Below are positions 1-63,660 of a stretch of 64,000 nucleotides of DNA, in pieces (the stretch's first letter is position 1; every line of letters begins with the position of its first letter). Source of the stretch: Mya arenaria (lineage: Eukaryota > Mollusca > Bivalvia > Myida > Myidae); contig NC_069130.1 in the NCBI RefSeq assembly GCF_026914265.1, positions 45,903,929 through 45,967,928 of the forward strand. The letters run 5' to 3'. The position numbers were made by a program, and so were the translations under genes. The notes under the pieces were generated by a model that saw only the letters and a program-made list of their open reading frames with translations, ran no database searches and was not told the origin of the DNA.

Positions 1-3000
1 AGTTCTTCCCTTGTTTCTCAGTGTTCACCAATGCACACTTGCCTTGTTTCTCAGTGTTCACCGACGCATACTTGTCTTGTTTCTCTGTGTTCACCAATGC
101 ACACTCGCATTGTTTCTCAGTGTTCAACGATTCACATTTGCTTGTTTCTCAGTGTTCACCAATGTACACTCGTCTTGTTTCTCAGTGTTCAACGATTCAC
201 ATTTGCTTGTTTCTCAGTGTTTACCAATGCACACTCGCCTTGATTCTCAGTGTTCACCAATGCACAGTCGCCTTGTTTCTCAGTGTTCACCAATGCACAC
301 TCGCCTTGTTTCTCAGTGTTCACCAATGTACACTCGTCTTGTTTCTCAGTGTTCACCAATGCACACTCGCCTTGTTTCTCAGTGTTCACCAATGCACACT
401 CGCCTTGTTTCTCAGTGTTCACAATTGCTCACTCTCCTTGTTTCTTTGTTTTCAGAAATTACACACTCGCCTTGATTCTCAGTGTTCACAAATGCACAGT
501 CGCCTTGTTTCTCAGTGTTCACCAATGCACACTCGCCTTGTTTCTCAGTGTTCACCAATGTACACTCGTCTTGTTTCTCAGTGTTCACCAATGCACACTC
601 GCCTTGTTTCTCAGTGTTCACCAATGCACACTCGCCTTGTTTCTCAGTGTTCACAATTGCTCACTCTCCTTGTTTCTTTGTTTTCAGAAATTACACACTC
701 GCTTTGTTTCTCAGTGTTCACCAATGCACACTCGCCTTGTTTTTCACTGCTCACCAATGCACACTCGCCTTATTTCTCAGTCTTCGTCAATGCACACTCT
801 CCTTGTTTCTCAGTATTCACCAATGCACACTCGCCGTGTTTCTCAGTGTTTATTAATGCACACTGGCCTTGTTTCTCAGTGTTCACCGTTGCACACTTTC
901 CTTTTTTCTCAGTGTCCACCAATGCACACTTGCCTTGATTCTCAGTGATCACCAATGCACACTGGCCTTGTTCCTCAGTGTTCACCAATGTACACTGGCC
1001 TTGTTCCTCAGTGTTCACCAATGCACATTTGTTTTGTTTCTCAGTATTTACCATGAACATTTGTCTTGTTTCTCAGTGTTCACCGATTCACACTTGCCTT
1101 GTTTCTCAGTGTTCACCAATGCACACTCGTCTTGTTACTCAGTGTTCATTAATGCACACTCGCCTTGTTTCTCAGTGTTCATCACTGCACACTTGCCTTG
1201 ATTCTCAGTGTTCACCAATGCACACTCGTCTCGTTTCTCAGTGCTCACCAATGCACACTCGTTTTGTTTCTCAGTGTTCGCCAATGTACACTGGCCTTGT
1301 TCCTCAGTGTTCACCAGTGCACATTTGTTTTGTTTCTCAGTATTTACCATGAACATTTGTCTTGTTTCTCAGTGTTCACCGATCCACACTTGCCTTGTTT
1401 CTCAGTGTTCACCAATGCACACTCGTCTTGTTACTCAGTGTTCATTAATGCATACTCGCCTTGTTTCTCAGTGTTCATCGCTGCACACTTGCCTTGTTTC
1501 TCAGTGTTCACCAATGCACACTCGTCTTGTTTCTCAGTGTTCACCAATGCATACTTACCTTGTTTTTTCAGTGTTCACCAATGCACACTGGCCTTGTTCC
1601 TCAGTGTTAACCAATGTACACTGGCCTTGTTTCTCAGTGTTCACCAATGCACATTTGTTTTGATTCTCAGTATTTACCATGAACATTTGTCTTGTTTCTC
1701 AGTGTTCACCGATTCACACTTGCCTTGTTTCTCAGTGTTCACCAATGCACACTCGTCTTGTTACTCAGTGTTCATTAATGCATACTCGCCTTGTTTTTCA
1801 GTGTTCATCGCTGCACACTTGCCTTGTTTCTCAGTGTTCACCAATGCACACTCGTCTTGTTTCTCAGTGTTCACCAATGCACACTCGTCTTGTTTCTCAG
1901 TGTTCACCAATGCACACTCGTTTGTTTTCTCAGTGTTCACCAATGCACATTTGTTTTGTTTCTTCTCCGTATTTACCATGAACATTTGTCTTGTGTCTCA
2001 GTTTTCACCAATGCACACTTGCCTTGTTTCCCAGTGTTCACCAAAGCACACTCATCTTGTTACTCAGTGTTCACCAATGCACACTCGCTTTTTTCTCAGT
2101 GTTCATTAATGCACACTTGCCTTGTTTCTCAGTGTTCACCAATGCACACTCGTCTTGTTTCCCAGTGTTCATCAATGCACACTCGTCTTGTTTCTCAGTG
2201 TTCACCAATGCACACTGGCCTTGTTCCTCAGTGTTCACCAATGCACATTTGTTTTGTTTCTTCTCAGTATTTACCATGAACATTCGTCTTGTTTCTCAGT
2301 GTTTACCGATTTACACTTGCCTTGTTTCCCAGTGTTCACCAATGCATACTCGTCTTGTTACTCAGTGTTCATTAATGCACACTCGCTTTTTTCTCAGTGT
2401 TCATTAATGCACACTCGCCTTGTTCCACAGTGTTCACCAATGCACACTCGTCTTGTTCCTCAGTGTTCACCAATGCATACTTACCTTGTTTCTCAGTGTT
2501 CACCAATGCACACTGGCCTTGTTCCTCAGTGTTAACCAATGCACACTGGCCTTGTTTCTCAGTGTTCACCAATGCACATTTGTTTTGTTTCTCAGTATTT
2601 ACCATGAACATTTGTCTTGTTTCTCAGTGTTCACCGATTCACACTTGCCTTGTTTCTCAGTGTTCACCAATGCACACTCGTATTGTTACTCAGTGTTCAT
2701 TAATGCACAATCGCCTTGTTTCTCAGTGTTCATCGCTGCACACTTGCCTTGATTCTCAGTGTTCACCAATGCACACTCGTCTTGTTTCTCAGTGTTCACC
2801 AATGCACACTCGTTTTGTTTCTCAGTGTTCACCAATGCACACTCGTATTGTTTCTCAGTGTTCACCAATGCACATTTGTTGTTTTTCTCAGTATTTACCA
2901 TGAACATTCGTTTTGTTTCTCAGTGTTCATCGATTCACACTTTCCTTGTTTCTTAGTGTTCACCAAAGCACGCTCGTCTTGTTACTCAATGTTCATTAAT

Positions 3001-3580
3001 GCACACTCGCCTTGTTTCTCAGTGTTCATCGCTGCACACTTGCCTTGTTTCTCAGTGTTCACCAATGCACACTCGTCTTGTTTCTCAGTGTTCACCAATG
3101 CACACTCGTTTTGTTTCTCAGTGTTCAGCAATGCACACTCGTTTTGTTTCTCAGTATTCACCAATGCACATTTGTTTTGTTTCTTCTCAGTATTTACCAT
3201 GGACATTCGTCTTGTTTCTCAGTGTTCATCGATTCATACTTGCCTTGTTTCCCAGTGTTCACCAATGCACACTCGCCTTGTTCCTCAGTGATCATTAATG
3301 CACACTCGCCTTGTTTCTCAGTGTTCATCGCTGCACACTCGCCTTGTTCCTCAGTGTTCAACAATGCACACTCGTCTTGTTCCTCAGTGTTCACCCAAAC
3401 ACACTCGTCTTGCTTCTCAGTGTTCACCAATGCACACTCGTTTTGTTTCTCAGTGTTCACCAACGCACACTTGCCTTGTTTCTCAGTATTCGCCAATGCA
3501 CATTGGTCTTGTTTCTCAGTGTTTACCGCTGCACACATGCCTTGTTTCTCTGTGTTCACCAATGCATACTTGATTCAAAA
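1..3580. repeat. 33-bp satellite with ~300-bp higher-order structure
   Basis: About 108 tandem copies of a 33-bp unit (core TTGTTTCTCAGTGTTCACC followed by an AATGCACACTCGCC-like half). The array runs off the left edge and stops near 3580. From about 1050 on, a variant monomer containing TTTACCATGAACAT recurs near 1051, 1347, 1677, 1976, 2274, 2602, 2898 and 3197, so blocks of 9-10 monomers (296-330 bp) were themselves amplified. Near the left end, a 232-bp block (242-473) is repeated at once (474-705). Because 33 is a multiple of 3 and the unit lacks stops in several frames, long open frames exist on both strands. These are read as a by-product of the period, since no start context, splice sites or flanking coding sequence support them. 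Confidence 0.95.
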
Positions 3581-28295: not shown

Positions 28296-31200
28296 ATGAA
28301 AGCGATATTTTTGGTTTTCCTACTTTCTGCTTCTGTGGGTGAGTACATACTGCTGTTTTACTTTTTGAATGTATTAACGATGATATTTATCTTATACTTG
28401 TTAAAATTTCGCCTAAAATAGTGTATGATTTAAACATTAAATATGGAAACCAGAGAAAAAAATAGCTGTACTACATACATTTTTGTCTGATTCCTTAGCC
28501 TAGTGGGCATGCGCAAATCAACAACCAAATTACTACTTAAAGTAAATCAGAAGTTTGTTTACCAATTGAAGAGTGTTTATTTACAATTTGTTAGTTTTAC
28601 TAAAGAACATTCAAGGAACGCAAAAAAAGAAATACTATGACGTGTGTAATTGTATCACTTCTCATTACTTGCTTATGATACATAACATTTGACTTTCGCT
28701 CTCGTACGATGTGTAATTTCCAAATAATTAATCGTCAAATGTTTAACCGGATAATGAATGAACTCCTCATTTGTAGCAACGAATGTGTCATGTGATATAA
28801 GAAATCTTGTGTATATTGTATTATAATTCAAAATGTCTTGAAACTAGTTATGAAAAAGTTATAAAGCTCGCCGTATGGTCACTTTATATTTTTTCCATAA
28901 TGAGTCTCATTTTTTTTTTAGTATTCAAGAAAACTATTCTGTTGAAGTAGATTCTATGTGAAAAGCATATAGCATCGGCTCAATTGCTTTGGAGTTTTGC
29001 TTCTCGTCAGAGTGTGTAGATTTTCGGTTTCGTTCTAGGCACACGTTCGGTGACTAAGCAAATAAGCGGACTTATCAGGATTTGTAGCATGGATTTGCAT
29101 TTTTCTATTTTAAGTTAACGCGATGTGTCTGATGCATTTAACAGATTATAATTATGAGCTTGCACACTGTATATGTAACATGTTGTATGAAATTGATTCG
29201 TAAACTTATTTGAATGCTTTTTAATAATCTGTAAATATGTTATGCTCTCCTAATTTGTAGGAAATAAAAGATAATGATACTACTTCTCGTATTAAATGCC
29301 AACTAATGTAATCATAAATTATACTTATGACCAGCCACAAGACTTCTGCCAGTCGAAAGCCTTCAATTACTTATTTTCGAGTAATTCGAATTGAGGATAA
29401 CAACTTTGTATTGCGAAACGCCGACAGCTCGTGCGAATGTCGACAAATACTTGTTGTTAAGTTGCCGACCTTTGTACGGCGTTCGGCAATTCTACTATTA
29501 ACCTTCTATAGAGGTAGATATGCATGAGTTTTTTTGATCGGCCGCAATTTAATGCAGGAACACGTGTTTCAACAGAAAGAGGCAGAAGTGTATAATGAAA
29601 ACAGAAATGCTGACCGCAAGTCAAGTTCTCTAAAAATATTTCTAAGACAAATATATCATTGAACACTATGGTAAAAGATCGAATGCGGGGCTCCATAAGC
29701 GGCGAAGACTGCGCTATGTTTCATTTAAAATGGTGAAGAAATAGTAAAGTTATCTTTGATTAAAGTCTTCATTCGAAGCAAAATGTTGCCTTCCGAAGTA
29801 GCATATATGACGCAATTTATCACGTGGTATACACACACTGATGACACAATTTTTATTTCATGCATACCGGTGAAAGAGTGAAAAATATTAGTGACTGATA
29901 ACTTGATCATTTCACTGATAACCCTTGCTCATTCCACTATGTACATATAACTCGGGACTATTTTTTCCCCATTTTTTATAAGATTTGCTTCCCATGACTT
30001 TGAAAAAATACATGTATGTCACAAGTACATGTTTGTTGTCGTCTGAAGTGCAGTAATATATACACATTGACCGAATCGTATTGAATTGTCAAAATCAATT
30101 ATGCAATAGTTTTAATAAAACAAACATTTTGCGAACTATTAAAAAAGAACAAGCTTACCAATTTATGTATGAACTATTTTATGGAACATACTCTTACAAT
30201 TAACCCGCTTGGTAGGTATTGGTTGAATATTTACTTGGCCACATGTGCTAATATTAGAGTTGATAGATCATTTCTTCCTTCAAACTCTGCACAAGCATTT
30301 TGAATTTGACCAATTTCCAGTTTACATTTATTTTCAACAATTCTTTTTTTTCTTTTTTCTTTTTAAAAACATTTCCTCTGGGGTCTTCGTAAAAACACGG
30401 GAACGTGACATTCAACTTTAATATATATGAAACTAATTCGCTGTCCCAACAACAAAACATCCTTCGGCTGCACTGAGCATAAATTCACCCCGAAAAAATA
30501 CAGTAAGATCCAGAGTCTGAGAGCGACAGTGACTAGATATACACTACGAAAAACACTTAACACATGTATCACGTGGTATCCACACACTGTAGAGACACTT
30601 ACGTATAAACACCAGTCCTCATAAATAAAAACAGACACCACGATAAAAACGATCATGAATCTTGTCAACAAATCCATTAGTGTGGACTTTTTTTTAAATT
30701 AATGTCACAATAGAAACATTTATTATAATAATTTCAGCTTGTATGAGTCGCGTATAAGCACTGCCGTAATATTCATTTGGAGTAAGTTGTTTTGTTCGTG
30801 TGGTTCTCATTGGCTATCTTTTTTGCTGATAAAATTATACAAGAAAATATAAGTTTAAGGCTGCTGACCTTGTATCTGTATTACACAATTAAATATATAC
30901 ACTAAACAAAATTCCTAACCGGCCACTTAGTAAAGTAACCTTCTTGCATTAAGTATAATCAATATACAGTTCAGTATTCGATATCCTCCATCTCGTGGCA
31001 ATATTTTTTGGAATATTGAGCTAAATCGAAGCATAAACGGCAGAGAAAACACAGTTCATATGCGGTAACTCCTAAATTCAATGGTCACAAGGAAAAGAAA
31101 TAACTATGCAAATTCCATAGGGAATCAAAATTTTCATTGTTTTTGTATTTTTAGCAATCTTTTGACTCAGGCTTTGTTTCATATAGATGGTAATGTTAAA

Positions 31201-39929: not shown

Positions 39930-42900
39930 CAGGGGCGTAGCTTTCTATAGGCCGTGTAGGCCGCGGCCTACACATTTCCCCAGAAAGTCGAAAAAATAAA
40001 AATGCCAAAAATGCAATTAAAATCGTAGGGGGTAGGACGGTAGGGGTAAATGGAACACCAGAAACAAAATTTGCCAAGAACAGACCGTGCTTGATTTGCC
40101 GGAATCTACACGTATGAAATGATTTATAGTCTATACACCCCAAGAAAGAGTTCGAACGACTGTAGCCCGCATATTGTAAAGTTTGGACCGGCCGCGTTTT
40201 GTAAAGTTCTGTCTTCTAAACTTTTCAAACAATGCTTGGTAGGCGCTTTTTTGAAATGTAAACAGACCAAGAGCCTGACAGAGGTCATCATAGCCGAAAA
40301 CATTCCTAAGTATTCGGATATCGGATGTCTTACCTTACCCCCTGTAGATGAAGACACCAAACAAAAATTATTAAATGGAACCTGGCCATCGTGTCTTCAG
40401 TTCAAACACGGTCAGTCTTTTTCTTTAGTCTTAATAAATTGTATTAAATTGTGTGCTAAGTACAATAACTCACAGACCAGTATATTGTTAAAGTGGATTT
40501 GTCCTGTCAGTAAGAAACTAAAATGTTAACCAATTAAGATAGATTTACTATGCAAATCAGTTATTTTTGTACACGTATTGTTTCCAAATAGTAGAGTTTA
40601 ATTGATTGGTTTAAATTAAATAATACACTTAAATTTAATGCTGTACTGAGACAAAAGCGCTGGGAATCAGTGCTCGCATCCGAACATATCGGGTTAGATT
40701 CCCCGTTCGGCTGATTTTTTTTTTAAACTTATTATTTGTCTTGTAACAATTTTAATTTTAAATACAATTATTTATTATTGTAGTTTTCTTTTCCAGAGCA
40801 TTTGAAACAAGTAGTAAGCTGCGAAAACTCAGCGGAAAATGGTTAATGGAAACACCATGGTTGAGGTACTCCATGACAAAGGATGCTGTCTTTTGTGTGA
40901 ACTGCTGTTTGTTCGGAGGCATAGACGGATGAGAGAAAGCCTTTACGGCCGTCACATGGGATTGGAAGAATATTTCCATGCTAATTAAACGTCATGCAGT
41001 TGAAAAATCCCATCTTAATGCGTCTGTTCGTGGCGAAGGCTATATGCATATCTTGTCCGGAAAATGTGAATCGATAAACAAAACCGTATCAAAATAATCG
41101 GTAAACAAAAATCGACATATTGTCCAGAATTATTGAAGTAATTGTGCTTTGTGCAAAGCAAAAATATAACATTACGCGGACACACCGAAAATAACGACAA
41201 TTTCATGGTCATACTGAGGACCTTTGCACAAAATGATCAAATCCTAGCAAATCATCTAGACAACGCACACTTTAACAGTAAATACACTTCAACAGAAATC
41301 CAAAATGAATTAATTGGCATTTCCACAAGTCAGGTAAAGAAACAACTTTTGGAAGACTGTCGGTCGTGCCCCTATTATGCCATCATGGTTGATAAAGCAA
41401 CAGACAAATCGACAAAAGAACAATTGTCTTTTTCGTGCGTTTCGTCGATGGGAGTTGCGTAATCCGAGAAGAATTTCTTGGATTCATCGAGTGTGAATCG
41501 ATCAAGGGAGTCGCACTTTGCGCAAACATTGTGGAGTTCTTGCAAGAAGCAAATCTCGATCTACTTAAGATTAGAGCTCAGTGCTTTGACGGTTCGTCAA
41601 ATATGTCTGGGCAATTTCGGGGACTTCAAGCTCTTATCCGTGAACGCTAACCACATGCAAATTACGTGCATTGCAAATCGCATTGTTTGAACCTGTTTTT
41701 CGCCCATAGTTCAAACATTCCTTGTGTCAGAACCGTCATGTCGACTGTTCAGGACATAAGCTTCCTGTTGGATAATTCTGCTAAACGGTTGTTCGCATTC
41801 CAGGACGAGCTGTCACACGATGTTGCTACCCAAGAGGAAACGAACCAGCGCACTAAGCTCCGTACTCTGTGTGAAACACGTTGGTCCAGTCGGGCAGACC
41901 CTCTTGAAACATTCAAGAATGCGTTCCCTGTAGTGGTTCACGCATTTGAGACATTACAGGCAGATGGCGATGAAAAGGCAGGGCAATATCTGGCCACCAT
42001 ATTGCGTTTCGAATTTACAATTGCGCTCCTTGTGGTGGAACACACACCGTTCCCCTGACATATCTACAAAAACAGGACAACGACTTGTTGCATGCTGTGA
42101 GTGAAACACGCGTAGTTATTAAGCTGTGCAACGATGAAAGGGCTGATAAGTATGTTTGGGATGCGCTATACGACAACGTCGTAGACGTAAGCGCTGATTT
42201 TGACATTCAACCATCAATGCCGAGAAGTGCTGGTCGACAGCTGAACAGAGCTAACCCTGATGTCCAAACGGTGTCCGATTACTACAGGGTCACTTTGTAT
42301 AATGTATTCCTGCACCATTTAGTTCAGGAAATTGAAACTTGTATTCTGTGTAATGAAGATCGGCACTGTGTGCAACACTTATTGCCTTTCAAACTGGCTG
42401 ACCTGCGGGATAATGCCGCCGACAATATATGCCGCCGTTGCCCCCGACCTTCCGCAAACATACGAGACATTCAAGTCAGAATTGCTAGATGGAGTATGAC
42501 AGACATTAAGGATTCAATACTCCAAGACACCCTTCAGCAGACGTGCAAGGACTTGTATCCGTGGAATTGTACCATCATCGAGGTCCTTTTGACCATGCTA
42601 CCGACGTCGGTTACATGTGAAAGGTCATTTAGTGGTATGAAACGCATAAAAATCTAATTGCGAACAAAAATGACGTCTGACAGGCTGTCGTCGTTAGCCC
42701 TGATCCATGTACACAAGAACATGAACATTGATGTTGACCAAGTGATCAACGTGTTTGCCTCAGAGAAATGCAGAAAACTATACTTTTTTTCTAAATTGAC
42801 GTTGGATTATTGTTACTTTGACATTGACTTGAAACGCATTTAGATGTTGAAAGTTGATATCGCTAGTTTTTCCTCTTGTCTTTTTCAATAATTACTAAAT

Positions 42901-43297: not shown

Positions 43298-43639
43298 GTA
43301 ATGCAACTGTATTGGCTAATACCCTTAAGGACAGCGATGGAATGCTCAAACGTGCTCAAATGATTAACTTCAGGGCTCATGAAATACTGAAAACAACAAC
43401 GACTATAGTGTATGCATTAATTCAAATAAAAACCATCACATCGTATGTCAGTGAAATAAAAAGGCAACAAGAATACAAACTACACAATAGGCGCAAAAAC
43501 AAAGATGTACTACGATAAAAAAATTCCCTTATAAAGGGAAGGAATATGCAAAGAATTTCTTGAGAACATTGCCTTTTATGCATTTCGTTTACGTCCAATA
43601 TGACAATGATGACCCATGTAACTGATGTAACTTTTAATT

Positions 43640-45408
43640 GTTGTTGGTTTGGTAGGTCTTGTAGTTGGTCGTGCAGTAGTAGGTCTTGTAGTTGGTCGTG
43701 CAGTAGTAGGTCTTGTAGTTGGTCGTGCAGTAGTAGGTCTTGTAGTTGGTCGTGCAGTAGTAGGTCTTGTAGTTGGTCGTGCAGTAGTAGGTCTTGTAGT
43801 TGGTCGTGCAGTAGTAGGTCTTGTAGTTGGTCGTGCAGTAGTAGGTCTTGTAGTTGGTCTAGTAGGTCTAGTAGTTGGTCGTGCAGTAGTAGGTCTTGTA
43901 GTTGGTCGTGCAGTAGTAGGTCTTGTAGTTGGTCGTGCAGTAGTAGGTCTTGTAGTTGGTCGTGCAGTAGTAGGTCTTGTAGTTGGTCGTGCAGTAGTAG
44001 GTCTAGTAGTTGGTCTAGTAGGTCTAGTAGTTGGTCGTGCAGTAGTAGGTCTTGTAGTTGGTCTAGTAGGTCTTGTAGTTGGTCGTGCAGTAATAGGTCT
44101 TGTATTTGGTCGTGCAGTAGTAGGTCTTGTAGTTGGTCGTGCAGTAGTAGGTCTTGTAGTTGGTCGTGCAGTAGTAGGTCTAGTAGTTGGTCTAGTAGGT
44201 CTAGTAGTTGGTCGTGCAGTAGTAGGTCTTGTAGTTGGTCTAGTAGGTCTTGTAGTTGGTCGTGCAGTAATAGGTCTTGTATTTGGTCGTGCAGTAGTAG
44301 GTCTTGTAGTTGGTCGTGCAGTAGTAGGTCTTGTAGTTGGTCGTGCAGTAGTAGGTCTTGTAGTTGGTCGTGCAGTAGTAGGTCTTGTAGTTGGTCGTGC
44401 AGTAGTAGGTCTTGTAGTTGGTCTAGTAGGTCTAGTAGTTGGTCGTGCAGTAGTAGGTCTTGTAGTTGGTCTAGTAGGTCTAGTAGTTGGTCGTGCAGTA
44501 GTAGGTCTAGTAGTTGGTCGTGCAGCAGTAGGTCTTGTAGTTGGTCGTGCAGTAGTAGGTCTTGTAGTTGGTCTAGTAGGTCTTGTAGTTGGTCGTGCAG
44601 AAGTAGGTCTTGTAGTTGGTCTAGTAGGTCTTGTAGTTGGTCGTGCAGTAGTAGGTCTTGTAGTTGGTCGTGCAGTAGTAGGTCTAGTAGTTGGTTGTGC
44701 AGTAGTAGGTCTTGTAGTTGGTCTAGTAGGTCTAGTAGTTGGTCGTGCAGTAGTAGGTCTTGTAGTTGGTCGTGCAGTAGTAGGTCTTGTAGTTGGTCGT
44801 GCAGTAGTAGGTCTTGTATTTGGTCTAGTAGGTCTAGTAGTTGGTCGTGCAGTAGTAGGTCTTGTAGTTGGTCTAGTAGGTCTTGTAGTTGGTCGTGCAG
44901 TAATAGGTCTTGTATTTGGTCGTGCAGTAGTAGGTCTTGTAGTTGGTCGGGCAGTAGTAGGACTTGTAGTTGGTCGTGCAGTAGTAGGTCTTGTAGTTGG
45001 TCGTGCAGTAGTAGGTCTTGTAGTTGGTCGTGAAGTAGTAGGTCTTGTAGTTGGTCGTGCAGTAGTAGGTCTTGTAGTTGGTCGTGCAGTAGTAGGTCTT
45101 GTAGTTGGTCGTGCAGTAGTAGGTCTTGTAGTTGGTCTAGTAGGTCTAGTTGTTGGTCGTGCAGTAGTAGGTCTTGTAGTTGGTCTAGTAGGTCTAGTAG
45201 TTGGTCGTGCAGTAGTAGGTCTTGTAGTTGGTCGTGCAGTAGTAGGTCTTGTAGTTGGTCGTGTAGGTCTTGTAGTTGGTCGTGCAGTAGTAGGTCTTGT
45301 AGTTGGTCGTGCAGTAGTAGGTCTTGTAGTTGGTCGTGTAGGTCTTGTAGTTGGTCGTGCAGTAGTAGGTCTTGTAGTTGGTCTAGTAGGTCTAGTAGTT
45401 GGTCGTGC

Positions 45409-45468
<60 letters not shown>

Positions 45469-45470
45469 TG
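43640..45470. repeat. 27-bp coding minisatellite (TTARPTTRP)
   Basis: About 60-70 units of mostly 27 bp, mixed with shorter units that drop the Ala codon and yield TRPTTRP. A (TAG)n-like run at 45409-45470 codes a pure Thr tract. All codon frames stay open on both strands; the minus frame is chosen because it joins in phase to the LU exon. Confidence 0.92.
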
Positions 45471-46146
45471 TTGTCGTTGTTGACGATGATGATGATGATG
45501 AGGAGGAGGAGGAGGAGAATGAAGATGGCGCTGATTTTGTTGCTATTTCTGAAAAAAAAGTTAGAATGAATTGTAACAAATTCAATAAGTGTGCAGGTAT
45601 TGAGCTAGTTTTGTCGCCAATAGCAATCTGTGCGTTCTGTGAACGTAGATAAACTAAAATACACGATGTTCAACATGGTAATTTTCATTGTAAACTGACA
45701 AGATACTAGTCTCCGAAATGTGCCGCAGCCTAAAAGAAATTCAAGGATGTTTTTCAAAGTTGAATGGAACACAATGTTACCTTTATTGCATCTGTTCGTG
45801 TTACAACATGACATTTTCAACGTGCTTGTGCTGCGTCCGAAGACTTCCGGGTCGTAGGTTTTTGGCACACATAACTGAAGAAGGAACACGTTTATTTTAA
45901 AAGTGACAAACCCGATGGAAAAATACATTCGGGGCTTCCCGGCCATTTTAAAGGGACTGTACTCCATATGATGAAATAACAGGTGAAAAAAGGAAAATTT
46001 TCGAAAACTGACATAAACTTGGTATCGATGTGTACAATGCATTGAAACTTACTGACTGAAGTACCATAAAGTTTACAATTATTTGATTTTTTTGCAGTTT
46101 TTTTCGTATTTTCCCATTAAAAATACTAGGTATGTCTACCTAGAAG

Positions 46147-46422
46147 AATTCATTCCTTATGCGTGATTGGCTAGTCGATGTTATCACGTATTTCACGTAG
46201 TTTCCATTTGATATCATAATTGTAAAAAGGAAGTACCAAAATGTAAAAACAAATGGTGTCGGAGACCGGGTTCGAACCCGTGTCGCTAAAATTGCAGTCC
46301 AGCGTCGAATACAATAGGCTACGACGGATTACTGTAAGCGGTCGACACAATTAAGCTATACAATTAACTCGGTAATATCCTGTGATAACACCGACTAGCC
46401 AATCACGCATAAGGAATGAATT
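46147..46422. mobile_element. foldback MITE enclosing a tRNA-like head
   Basis: Ends are AATTCATTCCTTATGCGTGA and its inverse, with pairing continued over about 40 bp (through GGCTAGTCG and TGTTATCAC). The middle (about 46255-46330) read on the minus strand has a tRNA-like A-box region and a B-box GGTTCGAACCC. It lies in the intron between the two LU exons. Confidence 0.8.
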
Positions 46423-46428
46423 TTACTG

Positions 46429-46680
46429 AGCAAGAACCACTTCTTAATTAACATACATGTAATTAAATGTAAAACGTTGTTGGTTTGACTTCGACTGTAA
46501 ATTGTCCTTAATGCGAGAGCAACATATCTTTCATCTTGCTTGTAGTTGATCAAAATAAAAGAGCAACAAAACTTTCTTCTTACTGTGACACCAGGGTAAT
46601 AAACTGTCAATTAAAGGCAGTCTTTAAACTAGGCCGTTGAGCAAGAACCACTTCTTAATGAATGTACATGTAACTAAATG
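46429..46680. repeat. ~210-bp direct duplication edge
   Basis: GAGCAAGAACCACTTCTTAAT followed by an ACATGTAA..TAAATGTA stretch occurs at 46429 and again about 210 bp later near 46639. It may mark a local duplication or a transposon scar in the LU intron. Confidence 0.6.
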
Positions 46681-47199
46681 TATGGATTAACAAACCTGGT
46701 CCATTTGACACACTTCCGTCTGAATGCACTGTGACATATTGTCAACAAGGATGTGACAGGAGTGGCACGTCAGAGCTGTTTGAATATAAACGTTAATCAC
46801 AATGCTAGAAAACACCATCACGTTCTGTATTTGAATGTCACGTGATTCAATTCGAAATGCAAGTTAGGATAATGGTAAAATTAGTATATTTTGGGAATGA
46901 AAATCTGTTCTCGTGTCTTCAGTTGTGCCTTGCTGAGATCAAAAACCGTGAAAGTGGCATTATAAATAATATGAAGACTAAGAATTAATTAACAAATAGT
47001 ATTGGAACAATATCAGCGCATGCCCTAAACTTACTACGGAATTGCTTAATTACAAAAGGATAAGTACCGCCTGCTATAGTATCGAAGACTGAATGCTAAT
47101 AGTTCAACTATCAGGAAGCGAAATGTATCTTCCTTGTTTTTGTCTATGTATGATAGGAGCGGTTGCAATTCGTGTAATTGTACGTTAAGATACATGAAA

Positions 47200-47420
47200 T
47201 TGTATGTGTAGGTTCGTGAACTTGTACGTGTAGACACACACTTGTACTTGTTGGTAAGTGAACTTATACGTGTAGACACACACTTGTACGTGTTGGTACG
47301 TGAACTTGTACGTGGAGGTACGTGAACTTGTACATGTAGGTACCTTAACTACTATATGTATATAGGTGACTTGTACGTGTAGGAAAGTGAACTTGTGAGT
47401 GTAGATGTGTAGGCTTGTGA
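47200..47420. repeat. 22-bp intronic minisatellite, left arm
   Basis: About ten diverged copies of GTACGTGTAGGTACGTGAACTT-like sequence between the second ShKT exon and the first LU exon. The same repeat, expanded, is at 63050-63660. Confidence 0.85.
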
Positions 47421-49365
47421 ACTTGTACGTGATGATACATGAACGGGTGAAAAATTGTGATTGAATTTAAATGTAGTTTGCGACATTTATCCTCAAACTT
47501 GGAACTTGTAGACTTGCTCTTATCGCATGAAACAGTTTCCTTGTGCAGTAGTTTAAATGATTTATATTCAATGCACACAATTACGTGACGTATTGCGCAA
47601 AAAGTCCATACGTATCTGCACAATAGTAATAAGTGTTTCGCGACCAGTTTATTGTCACGAGACAAACTTACCGCATTTTCCACAGAAGCTTTTACAAACG
47701 ATCTCGGCAATACTCGGCTCATCACATATGTTGGGATTCCCGGCATGCATCAGCTCACACGCCTGAGTATCGATATCAGCACAGGTTGGGACAACTGTGG
47801 TAGTGGGAGGAGACTCAGTTAAAGATAACGTTACTTAATTGTCCCTTTGAAGTCGATGGATTAATTCAAATCTCTATTTTCGTTTATTATGAACCTTATA
47901 TATCTATATAGTGGCTTCTCCATGCGTATGAATAAATGTATGACATTGAAATCATAAGTAATTGGATGTATATGCATCCATTTCCATTTTTTCCAACTAA
48001 TACTCCTGCAGTCCATCATATTAAATTTGAATAAGTTGACCACATTAACCAGTCTGCACATTATATCTTTGTGACTGGTTCAGAGTAATTTTTGGAGAAA
48101 TATTGACTAATCAATAAAAGGTTTTACTTAACAAAATATAATAATGTTTATCTTGTGCAGATCATATTATTTTCATTTAAACCTGCATTCTCATAGGTTT
48201 ACCGATTTCACAACTTTTCATTTTTTTGCTCAGAATCAGCTGATTTTGGCATGAATGTTTTCAGATAAATTATATAGCTACGATAGCACACAATAGAACT
48301 GATCTCATTTGATTGGAAAACTATCTATTTTTTTCTTTTTTTCTCTCATAGCGTTAGTGGATTTTTTAGCAATTAAACATCAATTTTCCAGTGTAAATAT
48401 TCAAAACTGTTACATTGACGCAAAATTTTGCTCATTCAAGGAAACCAAACGTGGGCTAAACGGCTCGAGTGCAGCTTTAAATCCTGATAGAAATTTAGGT
48501 CAACCGTCATTATTAATCGTAACAACTCCGGCCATCTCCGGCAAGCTTCGAAATAGAACATTATATTGGATGATGGCCGAGGTGTTCTGATAGCGTCCCT
48601 ATGTTTCGGGTAAGGAGACCCAATAATCGTCCACACCCCTCACACCCCCTGCACCCATTCCAATCAATAACGTTCCGATAATATTCATAGCTTACGGCAT
48701 TTCTGGCAGAATCTGGGGCATGTGGTGTCACCAAGGGGCGTGTTACACATATCCGGCTGGCTGTCGTGTCAAGCCTGCGTGTCGAGATCAGCGCAAATCT
48801 ACTGCGCGAAAGCTCCCGCCGACAGGAAGATGACAGAGAGGAAGGTTAGTGTGGACATCATTATTTACACTGAAATTATAAATATTTTAAAACGGAAAAG
48901 AGTAAATTATAATGTATGATTACATTCCTACTATAAAAATAGCGTACCATGACAAAAGCGGACATCACGGTTGAAAGTAAAAAAAAGCTGTTTTAGTCAG
49001 AGGCGGCAGTTGCCTTGACATGGCCCACCTTCACCTGAGTTAATCAATAACAGTTGACTGCTGATCTACTCAAATAAATGCATTGGGAAACTCTAGAGAG
49101 GCACTGCCTATTCATTAGACAAAGTTAAATGTTGACCACTTCTGCTCATTTAGACGTATTCTGATTAGTGTACGCGAATGAGAATGCAATAAATGAAAGA
49201 TAAGAAGGGACGACATTTAACAGTCGCCATACAGCACTACCTGCAGGCTGTAGATCCTGCAAAGAGTATTACTCGTCACAAACAGTTTACGATAAAATTC
49301 GGCATTTGATTTAGAGTAAGTTTTATTTTACGAAAATAAAATAAAAGAAACATACAAAACAATAC

Positions 49366-49477
49366 CTGTAAATTTGCTGATATCAAAGTAATCTTTCACT
49401 CAAGATATTACCTTGGTAATGATGAAGGTGTTCATTGAGGTCGTCTTTTACACTAATTTCTATCATTGGGTTATATA
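49366..49477 (-). promoter_or_regulatory. TATA promoter and untranslated exon, left copy
   Basis: TTATATAA at 49470-49477 (minus strand, in the context GCACTTATATAACCC), then an untranslated exon ending at 49366 with donor GTATTG. The same box and donor are conserved in the right arm. Confidence 0.65.
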
Positions 49478-49956
49478 AGTGCTGGCGTTCTGCGAGTAGT
49501 ACCATGGTCATTGTTATCATTCTGTGACAAAGCCAATGTCTCTTCGGCTGCTTATTTGATGAAAGTGTGATACCAATTTGACCCAGTGTTGACCATCTAT
49601 GGTTTTGTAAGGGTCACTTCTTACTTCACGAAGTTTAAATTTTATCTTTCCCCCAAAGTTCATCATCGATGCCCTGCTAGACGTTAATGGCAATGCAGAT
49701 TTGCAGTTCTAAATCTTGAAAACGTTTGTAAACATGTGCACAGGACGGCCAGAGTCATGAACTATTTCAAATCGAGTTCAAGCACCTGTGTCAAAACGTG
49801 ACGAATGAAAAAGATGATTTTTTTTTATTTAATAAAGGTGAGTGTCTGAGTATGAGTCTAGGGGTCATAATTATGTTCGTCTCAACTCCAAGTCTAGACT
49901 CAGACTCAATAAGTGTTTTAAGGAGTAAACGCCTTTTTTCATTTCTGTCACAACAA

Positions 49957-60286: not shown

Positions 60287-60464
60287 CATTAAAACCTTGT
60301 CCTATAGGCTAAACACAGTTGAGGAAATGATATTAAATGAATCCTAGGAGGTCACCACTGGGTTAGGCAGGGGTCACCTTAACTTAATGTAGCAGTCGAT
60401 GAGACATTGCCTTGGTCGCTGAACAGTTACAACGGTAAAAGTACTATTTACAGTACGTAAGCAC

Positions 60465-60577
60465 TTATATAACCCCATGATAGGAACTGGTATAAAAGAC
60501 GGTTTTACTGAACACCTACATCATTACCAAAGTTATAATTTAAGTGAAAGATTACTTTGATATCAGCAAGTTTACAG
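60465..60577 (+). promoter_or_regulatory. TATA promoter and untranslated exon, right copy
   Basis: TTATATAA at 60465-60472 is conserved with the left arm. A second box, TATAAAAG at 60491-60498, is present only here (the left arm has TGTAAAAG). The untranslated exon ends at 60577 with donor GTATTA; its acceptor is at 61786, ten bases before the ATG. Confidence 0.65.
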
Positions 60578-61204
60578 GTATTATATGTTTCTCTTATTTT
60601 ATTTTCGTGAAATAAGAACTTGAAAAATATAAATGAGAATTAGTGGTCAACATTATATTTTGACCAATAAAAAGGCAGTATTTATAAAGTTTCCCAAGGC
60701 TTTTATTTCAGTAAATCAGCAGTCAACCGTTATTGATTTTAATCAGGTGAAGCGGTAGATATAAACAGTAGCTGGCTCAGCTAGTGGATAGTTTATAATC
60801 ATAAAGTAGACAAAAACATTAAAGATTGTTAGTATGTACTTACACAAAACAAATAGTTATGCATAAAAGGAGGCGATGTTTAGGTGCGTTTGCAGCGTTG
60901 CAATTTGCAATGTTTCATTCAATTCAATAAACAATCTTTTATCAAAATGAAACTACTCGATTATACTAATAAGGTAATTCTAGCTATCTGGCACCGGATT
61001 TTCAAACTCAATCATTTCTTTTTAAAAAATCAAAAAAAAATCTTATAATTCCAAAATTTAACTTATAATACCGAAAATGTGAAAAAAATCTTGAAAAATA
61101 TTTTTTTTATAAATATGCTCTTTGTACTGTATATATATCACAATTTTACATGAGTAAAAACGGAGCCATCAACTTACTGACGTGTTTTAGGTCACCATCA
61201 CCGC

Positions 61205-61570: not shown

Positions 61571-61795
61571 GCTTTAGATTTTACAAATTAATATGAACAA
61601 CCATTATTTATTCTTTTCCGTATTTTAATGTCTATATTTCAGTGTAAACCGTGATGTCCAGTTTTTTTATATATATTTTTCTTTTGCTTTCAACCTTCTT
61701 GTCTGCCTTTGTCATTGATATGTTTTATTAAGAGTATAAAATGAAATTATTTATTCTGGTCAGTATTTCAATATGTTTAAATTTCAGTGTAAACA

Positions 61796-62814
61796 ATGAT
61801 GTCCGCACATATCTTCTTCTCTGTCATCCTTCTGTCGGCGGGAGCCTTCGCGCAGGAGATGTGCGCTGACCTTGACACGCAGGCTTGTGTTCGGATGCAG
61901 GCCAGTCAGCCGGATATGTGTAACACGCCTCTTGGTGACACCGCATGCCAAAAATACTGCAAGAAATGCCGTAAGCACTAGCGGATTTAGAGGGGGTGCA
62001 CCCTGCGCTCGCCCCCTCTAAAATCGTCCAAGTTCACATTTTTATATCAATCTGGGAGAGTACAGTAATAAAGTAATCTCAAATTGTACCATTTTCGACT
62101 ACAAATGATAAAAGGTTTTTTAAGGGAGTAACTCCACATCCCATGCAAACAATTTATGTCAAATACTTTTGGTTCTAAGGGATGGGGCGCATGTCAAAAG
62201 GTTGCGCCCCTAAGTTACGACCCCTCTTACGCCAATTCCTGGATCCGCCCCTGGTAAGCAAGGATAATTACGGGATTTTTATTTATTAGGGGGTTGCGAT
62301 TCATTGCGTCACGTAGCCAAAAGTATAGTGAAGGCATAGAACTCCTCGGCCATTATCCAACATAATTGACTGTCTCAAATGTTTCCGGAGGTGGTCGAGT
62401 TGTCACGATGAAAATGACGGGCACGGAACACTGTTGGCCTAAATTGTATCGATATTTTAAAGCTGCACCATCACAGCTTGACCGTGTTGGCCACTTTTTA
62501 TTTTTTGTCATTGAATAAGTCAAAAATTTTGCATTAATATCGGAAAACGGTGACATAAGACTTCTGATAAAAAAAAATCAGATCGCAGTTTTAAACGTTT
62601 ATATATTACAGTTGATAATAACTAAAATAGAGATGTTATTTCAACCATGAAGTAACGTTATCTTTAACTGAGTCTCCTCCCACTACCACAGTTGTCCCAA
62701 CCTGTGCTGATATCGACACTCAGGCGTGTGAGCTGATGCATGCCGGGAATCCCAACATATGTGATGAGCCGAGTATTGCCGAGATCGCTTGTAAAAGCTT
62801 CTGTGGAAAATGCG
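61796..62814 (+). CDS. ShKT-ShKT(-LU-mucin) gene, right copy, runs off the window
   Basis: Visible coding exons 61796-61970 and 62692-62814, both followed by donors (GTAAG, GTAGGT) in phase 1. Residues 1-19 are a signal peptide (MMSAHIFFSVILLSAG). First ShKT domain: Cys at 23, 31, 42, 51, 55 and 58. Second: Cys at 63, 71, 82, 92, 96 and 99. ShKT modules are small three-disulfide folds in secreted proteins of many animals; in some lineages they block potassium channels, but here no function can be read. The visible exons are intact. By comparison with the left copy the next exon (first half of a Ly6/LU domain) should start roughly 100 bp beyond base 64000, and a Thr-rich repeat exon may follow. 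A hAT-like element sits five bases into the intron at 61976. Confidence 0.85.
61976..62253. mobile_element. non-autonomous hAT-like element at a splice donor
   Basis: Starts CACTAGCGGATTTAG and ends CTGGATCCGCCCCTG, flanked by GTAAG at 61971-61975 and 62254-62258. The 5-bp target duplication is the start of the intron. About 278 bp, no coding capacity; absent from the left arm. Confidence 0.85.
62330..62590. mobile_element. old MITE fragments shared by both arms
   Basis: GAACTCCTCGGCCAT (GGAACTCC family) near 62340, then AAAGCTGCAC (TTAA family) near 62459. The same pair in the same order lies in the left arm at about 48430-48600, so these insertions predate the duplication. Confidence 0.65.
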
Positions 62815-63049: not shown

Positions 63050-63660
63050 TTACGCATAAATTCACATACATATACGTAAAAGTTAACAAACCTATCCTTA
63101 CCGGTCCACATACCTACACGTAAAAGTGAACGTTCCTACATATACAAATAAACGTACCTACACGTACATGTTCACATACCTACAAGTTCAAGTTCCTGTA
63201 CCTACATATAGAAGTTCACGTACCTTCACGTACACATTCATGTACCTACACATACAAGATTACGTTCCTACACGTACAAGTTCCCGTTCATTCACGTACA
63301 ATTTTGCCTACACGTACAAGTCCACGTACCTACACACAGAAATTTCCCGTTCCAACACGTACAAGTTTACGTACCTACACGTACAAGTTCACGTACCTAC
63401 ACATAGAATTTCCCGTTCCAACACGTAGAAGTTAACGTTCCTTCACGTACAAATTCACGTACCTACTCGTTCAAGTTCACGTACCTACACATAGAATTCC
63501 CCGTTCCTACACGTACAAGTTCACGTACCTACACGTACAAGTTTACTTAACTACACGTACATGTTCATGTACCTAAAAGTACACGAATTTTCACTTACAA
63601 GCTCACGTAACTACACGTACAGGTTCAGGTAACTACACATACCGGTTCACGTGAAAGTCC
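63050..63660. repeat. 22-bp intronic minisatellite, right arm
   Basis: About 27 copies of CTACACGTACAAGTTCACGTAC-like sequence with variants. About three times as long as the homologous array at 47200-47420. The 100-codon frame through it is a period artefact. Confidence 0.9.

Follow-up and report, generated by a model that had tools for sequence, protein, structure and literature searches.

Organization of the locus

The stretch of Mya arenaria DNA analysed here (the window; 64,000 nucleotides of contig NC_069130.1, C9:45903929-45967928) holds a minus-strand gene, gene A, and the beginning of a sister gene, gene B, which is oriented divergently and whose start codon also lies in the window, at a distance of 12.9 kb. 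A preliminary description of the window had proposed that gene A joins two ShKT domains, a Ly6/LU three-finger domain and a long Thr/Pro/Arg repeat in one chimeric protein; gene B formed no part of that description. Comparison of A with B and with their relatives leads us to a different reading, which we consider highly probable: gene A is a decayed duplicate of the intact gene B, its tail is a runaway minisatellite, and the B family encodes ShKT-ShKT-LU proteins that are predicted to be secreted.

The five coding exons of gene A lie where they had been placed, with AG/GT internal borders, an ATG at 48861 and a stop codon ending at 43576. Exon 1 (48696..48869, minus strand, as are all exons of this gene) encodes an apparent signal peptide and ShKT1, and exon 2 (47672..47794) encodes ShKT2 in an open frame, with 121 of 123 nt the same as in B. 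The LUa exon (46696..46775) supplies cysteines 1-4 of the LU domain and the LUb exon (45781..45874) its CCxxxxCN end, while the last exon (43576..45548) consists of a 27-bp minisatellite read as Thr/Pro/Arg repeats, followed by HCHIGRKRNA and a TAA stop. The phases described earlier (1 into LUa, 0 into LUb and 1 into the repeat exon) were confirmed, and ShKT2 is likewise entered in phase 1. A region containing the promoter and a 5' untranslated region (UTR) exon (49366..49480, minus strand) carries TATATAA at 49477-49471 and a donor site (TTTACAG/GTATT) after 49366.

Gene B has its coding region in six exons, 693 bp with the stop codon, and encodes 230 amino acids in an open frame. On the plus strand, the TATA box (60466-60472) and the 5' UTR exon span 60466..60577, with the donor after 60577; exon 1 (61788..61970, ATG at 61796) encodes an apparent signal peptide and an intact ShKT1, and exon 2 (62692..62814) an intact ShKT2. 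The other four exons, also on the plus strand, lie past the end of the window: LUa (C9:45967990-45968069), a middle LU exon that we call LUm (C9:45969324-45969395), LUb (C9:45970279-45970372) and the tail exon (C9:45970627-45970775). The predicted protein runs from a signal-like start through two ShKT modules and a ten-cysteine LU domain to a Thr-rich tail of 48 residues, with GRKRNA at its end.

Common to the two genes are the TATA box, the 5' UTR exon and its acceptor, the exon order and the phases; further, positions 49318-49552 (A) and 60391-60621 (B) form an inverted block with 79.7% identity. Because the same exons recur in the same order and phases in gene B, the layout of gene A cannot be put down to chance. 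The earlier suggestion that the exons form one transcription unit is thus well supported at the sequence level, both by B, where an open frame runs through the same arrangement, and by a Dreissena protein (discussed later) in which the modules stand in a single chain. Intron 2 of both genes contains similar minisatellites of ~22 bp (47171-47404 in A; 63061-63652 in B, with the B consensus TTCACGTACCTACACGTACAAG), which probably predate the A/B split and have changed in length since.

Exon 1 of gene A is interrupted

Although the first ShKT exon of gene A had been located correctly, it is not open. Its translation reads MMSTLTFLSVIFLSAGAFAQ, a stop, ICADLDTQA, another stop and finally the latter half of ShKT1. 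The first stop, a TAG (48801-48799), follows codon 20 directly behind the apparent signal peptide and cuts the signal-like segment off from the rest of the reading frame; the second, a TGA (48771-48769), is codon 31. Both were also listed by a search of the animal's own genome. Relative to B, the exon has in addition an in-frame 9-bp deletion. With the TAG and the TGA in exon 1, gene A has no open frame from start to stop: by the predicted translation, no secreted full-length product can arise from its start codon, and the gene is most likely without function as a secreted protein.

We compared A and B by the proportions of differing synonymous (pS) and nonsynonymous (pN) sites, each region offering few sites. 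The values were pS 0.167 and pN 0.122 for the signal part of exon 1, 0.190 and 0.127 for the second half of ShKT1, and 0.106 and 0.038 for ShKT2 and LU together. On the whole these values fit a weaker constraint on exon 1. In ShKT2 there are 2 differences in 123 nt, and the intron sequence on its two sides is 95% and 77% identical, a pattern that would fit either past constraint or gene conversion.

Gene A lacks the middle LU exon

The middle exon, LUm, was first recognised in a relative on C14; it has 24 codons, is of phase 0-0, and adds two cysteines to the LU domain. The A/B pair occurs three times on C9, and LUm was found in all three B copies and in the third A copy; in gene A of the window and in the second A copy it was looked for and not found. 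Of the Ly6/LU domain originally ascribed to gene A, LUa and LUb are therefore present, but the domain is incomplete, with eight of the ten cysteines of a complete LU. The combination of ten cysteines with CCxxxxCN is found in gene B and not in gene A. It is because the exon is lost that the LU domain of gene A, with its 8 cysteines, falls below the Pfam cut-offs (TOLIP 12.0 bits, UPAR_LY6 11.1 bits); our first spliced models, built without LUm and likewise with 8 cysteines, scored 12.0-12.8 bits against TOLIP and 11.1-11.6 bits against UPAR_LY6. We had considered an 8-cysteine LU to be a new, short type of the domain, and rejected this when the C14 relative revealed LUm, which was then seen to be present in B and not in A.

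The LUa-LUb intron of gene A is only 821 bp long and contains an inverted-repeat element that resembles a miniature inverted-repeat transposable element (46142..46427, no strand assigned; 286 bp, with 46-nt arms that are 93% complementary), in the intron where the relatives have LUm. The element is a putative transposon, and a comparison with phage sequences gave no match. A deletion plus an insertion in this intron would account for its present state.

The tail of gene A is a minisatellite, probably expanded

The ~650-codon Thr/Pro/Arg repeat reported for gene A is present, with 656 residues in the tail exon (T 42%, P 21%, R 21%), but 585 of its codons belong to an array of 69 copies of a 27-bp tandem unit. 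Frames +0, +1 and -1 of this array (three of the six) are all free of stops across the 585 codons, so that its openness is no evidence of coding; we accordingly discarded the long open frame as a sign of a coding function. Variants within the array, counted by eye, comprise seven kinds of amino acid change (N, I, Q, A and three times S) and about four silent kinds, a pattern that gives no sign of constraint at the protein level.

The origin of the array is suggested by gene B. The tail of B holds TAKPTTRPTKPTTTK, which matches the start of the array in A (TARPTTRPTRPTTRP), and the 27-bp unit corresponds to a B-like seed, AKPTTRPTKPTTTK. Between the two genes, the final codons and the 3' UTR can be aligned as well (190 of 231 aligned bases identical), which argues that the "mucin" of gene A is an overgrown B-like tail. 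Growth from a B-like seed is the simplest history, and either repeat slippage or unequal exchange would have driven it. A long, Arg-spaced Thr/Pro tail was seen only in the decayed gene A. Its composition fits a secreted mucin, but in gene A a stop separates it from the signal-like start; the tail of the intact gene B is just 48 residues long. Both tails end in GRKRNA although the remaining tail sequence differs greatly, and GRKR before NA may be a basic site for cleavage or amidation.

The gene pair is present three times

The three B copies on C9 are near-identical (0-2 nt differences per 693) and all are open. A larger block seems to have been copied, tens of kb in length: for a partly repetitive segment of the window 12 kb from the end of A (30000-31200), the best other matches, among the best 40 of 526 candidates scored, lie near copies 2 and 3, with 89-96% identity.

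Copy 2 matches the window at 99.7-100% identity in 18 of the 23 1-kb bins compared, and because of this near-identity we do not count it as independent evidence. Its gene A has both exon 1 stops, and its tail exon has 660 codons including the stop, as against 657 in copy 1, with almost the same array. Copy 3 has diverged by 5-8% on the A side, and its gene A has one stop only, the TGA. Since the TGA is present in this diverged copy, it probably arose before the duplication and is unlikely to reflect a sequencing error. The damage in the third A copy also differs from that in copies 1 and 2: neither LUb nor a tail was found within 8.6 kb behind LUa.

Predicted ShKT and LU domains of the B family

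ShK domains are characterised by six cysteines in a set order, ending in CxxxCxxC; the same pattern is seen in 20 Pfam-positive ShK domains of this genome. The six-cysteine order is present in ShKT1 (spacing 7-10-8-3-2) and ShKT2 (7-10-9-3-2) of gene B, and ShKT2 of gene A has the same order. None of four single-domain pieces matched the Pfam model PF01549 (ShK) at an E-value (E) of 10, although the HMMER filters may drop weak matches. A genome scan (best 150 of 295 candidates scored) listed 52 ShK matches, not one of them at the loci studied here. When a profile of six of the domains was compared by hhalign with 20 of the 52 Pfam-positive ShK domains, the two aligned with a probability of 72.6 and E 3.2e-5, over the last 21 columns only, in the C-terminal half. 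The sole PDB match at E<=10 was a ShTK domain protein, 7l2g (E 0.13). Together, these results give moderate support to the prediction that the modules are divergent ShKT domains.

The LU piece of gene B exceeded the Pfam cut-off for TOLIP (22.9 bits; cut-off 21.2) and scored 22.2 bits against UPAR_LY6 (cut-off 24.8), and the LU domain of a C14 relative gave 23.8 and 21.8 bits, respectively. No LU model was listed when the full 230-residue B protein was scanned against Pfam; full-length scans of B and of the Dreissena protein yielded nothing above cut-off in Pfam, and a search of NCBIfam nothing useful. The cysteine pattern and the TOLIP match of the isolated piece point to an LU, or three-finger, domain in B. 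As in Ly6/uPAR proteins, there are ten cysteines ending in CCxxxxCN; in B, however, the LU domain is preceded by ShKT domains and has no visible glycosylphosphatidylinositol (GPI) anchor, and in A it lacks LUm.

Relatives in Mya arenaria and other animals

With the signal segment, ShKT1 and ShKT2 as query, a search of the Mya arenaria genome (E 0.1; all 72 candidates scored) gave 29 matches, 12 of which are the three A/B pairs. Five of the 17 others were looked at; they fall at three loci, namely two genes on C14 and one locus on C2. Both C14 genes (gene 1, 13939 to 13946 kb; gene 2, 13974 to 13982 kb) contain ShKT1, ShKT2, LUa, LUm and LUb in that order. At the C2 locus (C2:16777000-16782999) we found one ShKT exon and no LU exon within 6 kb. 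For C14 gene 1, the 4.3 kb behind LUb contain no A- or B-like Thr/Pro run; for gene 2, which has a 40-bp array directly after LUb, the following 7.2 kb contain no open stretch of at least 40 codons with 40% Thr+Ser+Pro. The last exon of either relative was not found in these stretches, which keeps the two genes out of the comparison of tails. A C-terminal match on C14, SYWSSLTGFRRSA (E 0.98), was dropped, as it lies within no clear exon.

The preliminary description had proposed searching proteins for an ShKT domain followed by a CCxxxxCN LU domain in one chain, and such a protein exists. A database search with the complete LU recovered one relative among 2 candidates, Dreissena polymorpha LOC127859835 (250 amino acids; E 4e-46, 52% identity over 96% of the query, B residues 20-186), which is uncharacterised and bears the UniRef name ShKT domain-containing protein. 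The sensitivity of this search was word-limited, so that absence elsewhere means little; searches without LUm, or with ShKT2 alone, gave no match under the same limit. Like B, the Dreissena protein has a signal-like start, two ShKT modules, a ten-cysteine LU domain and a Thr-rich stretch in one chain. It differs from B in having, between the ShKT modules, an 18-residue Thr-rich linker where B has a 4-residue stretch, and in ending in what by eye is a third ShKT-like cysteine cluster rather than in SYWSHHNWGRKRNA; unlike A, it has no long mucin. A homologue with the same join indicates that the ShKT-ShKT-LU arrangement is conserved in two bivalve genera and is no accident of this locus. By this comparison of predicted proteins, the join is real and conserved.

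For the joining of two ShKT domains to a mucin there is a precedent. In Toxocara canis, the secreted proteins MUC-1 to MUC-5 (TES-120) resemble the proposed chimera, with tandem ShKT domains flanking a Ser/Thr-rich mucin core, according to the part of the source that we consulted (PMC3611597). These differ in being expressed proteins of a nematode, and the consulted part of that source mentions no LU domain (PMC3611597). Our literature searches listed no paper describing a ShKT-LU protein. The ShKT proteins of Cumia reticulata include single- and multi-ShKT forms as well as CAP-ShKT and M12-ShKT forms, and like the predicted proteins of the B family they are described, in the text consulted, as secreted, with tandem modules and frequent duplication (PMC6409789). 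Their partner domains differ (CAP, M12, EGF-like), and the terms "mucin" and "Ly6" are absent from the main text, where the spelling Ly-6 was not looked for (PMC6409789).

Gene A as a probable decayed duplicate of gene B

In the history that we favour, with gene A as a decayed duplicate, the gene has lost the open frame between the signal sequence and the rest, and LUm as well; its tail array would have grown, and no secreted product would be made. Several observations weigh against this history. ShKT2, LUa and LUb of gene A are still open and well conserved, the TATA box and 5' UTR exon are retained, and the LUa-LUb junction is in frame even though LUm is missing, so gene A may still give rise to a transcript or product. 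The nine codons between the two stops, with pS 0.35 (2 of 5.7 sites) and pN 0.05 (1 of 21.3), do not fit relaxed constraint. The low pS of ShKT2 (0.042) suggests gene conversion with B. Lastly, copy 2 may be an uncollapsed haplotype or a very recent duplicate.

An alternative is that gene A is a living, neofunctionalised mucin, using an alternative start or first exon and consisting of ShKT2, a reduced two-loop LU and a long glycosylated tail. Exons 2 to 5 keep open frames with agreeing phases and are closer to B than is most of the flanking intron, the core promoter is conserved, and the array is in frame in copies 1 and 2. These two copies are not independent, however, and the third A copy has neither LUb nor tail in the 8.6 kb searched. 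Further, the loss of LUm removes two of the ten cysteines, array variants that alter the residue are no rarer than silent ones, and we saw no alternative first exon, although we did not search for one specifically. We therefore regard a living mucin as improbable. The specific form in which transcription and translation of gene A use a first exon that has escaped recognition, to give a secreted ShKT and a middle-loop-less LU on a 585-codon Arg-spaced mucin, seems to us very unlikely; if true, it would represent a neofunctionalised copy caught turning from a ligand-like protein into a mucin, divergent to its ancestral gene.

Very doubtful, too, is the explanation that the animal has an intact gene A, with the stops and the absence of the exon arising from mistakes in assembly or base calling. 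Polishing is harder in a locus that is triplicated and rich in repeats, but an error at the TGA would need to have been repeated in the diverged copy 3, and the exon-less intron has sequence of its own, including the inverted-repeat element. Least probable of all is a single functional ShKT-ShKT-LU-mucin display scaffold, secreted or mucus-bound, as first proposed: the exon order, splice borders and phases agree with it and the family architecture is real, but the copy in the window is already contradicted by its two in-frame stops, an exon has been lost from the LU domain, and the long Thr/Pro/Arg tail, which is a repeat expansion, is absent from all three B copies and from the Dreissena protein.

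Under the interpretation of gene A as a decayed duplicate, what had been a tempting mucin display scaffold becomes a broken copy with an overgrown minisatellite, and the three A/B pairs illustrate clearly how a coding tail can run away into a minisatellite within an otherwise decayed gene. The family to which B belongs is a modest but real addition: in two bivalve genera, two divergent ShKT modules and a three-finger domain are joined in one predicted secreted chain. From its signal-like N-terminus, its cysteine frameworks and the lack of a hydrophobic C-terminus, all judged by eye, we infer that gene B encodes a secreted, disulfide-rich binding protein; inspection of the C-terminus by eye revealed no GPI or membrane anchor. 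B and its relatives would then be soluble, disulfide-locked extracellular binding proteins, whose LU and ShKT modules may bind receptors, channels or ligands, with the short Thr/Pro stretch as a predicted O-glycosylated spacer. Modulation of channels or receptors, a general habit of ShKT and LU modules, is a possible role. As to its site, our guess would be a secretory, mucus or haemolymph protein.

Other repeats and mobile elements

Tandem arrays also occur around C14 gene 1. An 18-bp array of ~115 copies (L058 2914-4954) starts 1.2 kb downstream of its LUb. One frame contains Ser/Thr-rich stretches (TSTVNQTSTVSL...) of 232, 112 and 96 codons and has 7 stops in 680 codons, as against 13 in each other frame. 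This array may be a second runaway Ser/Thr tail; no splice site ties it to C14 gene 1, and its stops argue against a coding role. In the intron after LUm of the same gene, a 67-bp tandem array (L057 3480-6000 and L058 1-216) repeats the end of the exon, and CMAKD was matched 32 times there besides the LUm exon itself; an edge of this predicted exon has been multiplied into a satellite within the intron. Next comes a 20-bp array (L058 413-1586).

In the window, positions 41142-42657 hold fragments of a hAT-like transposon, with scores below cut-off for both DUF4371 (30.1 bits; cut-off 32.1) and the hAT dimerisation region (18.2 bits; cut-off 21.4). A 33-bp minisatellite of ~108 copies occupies positions 9-3570.

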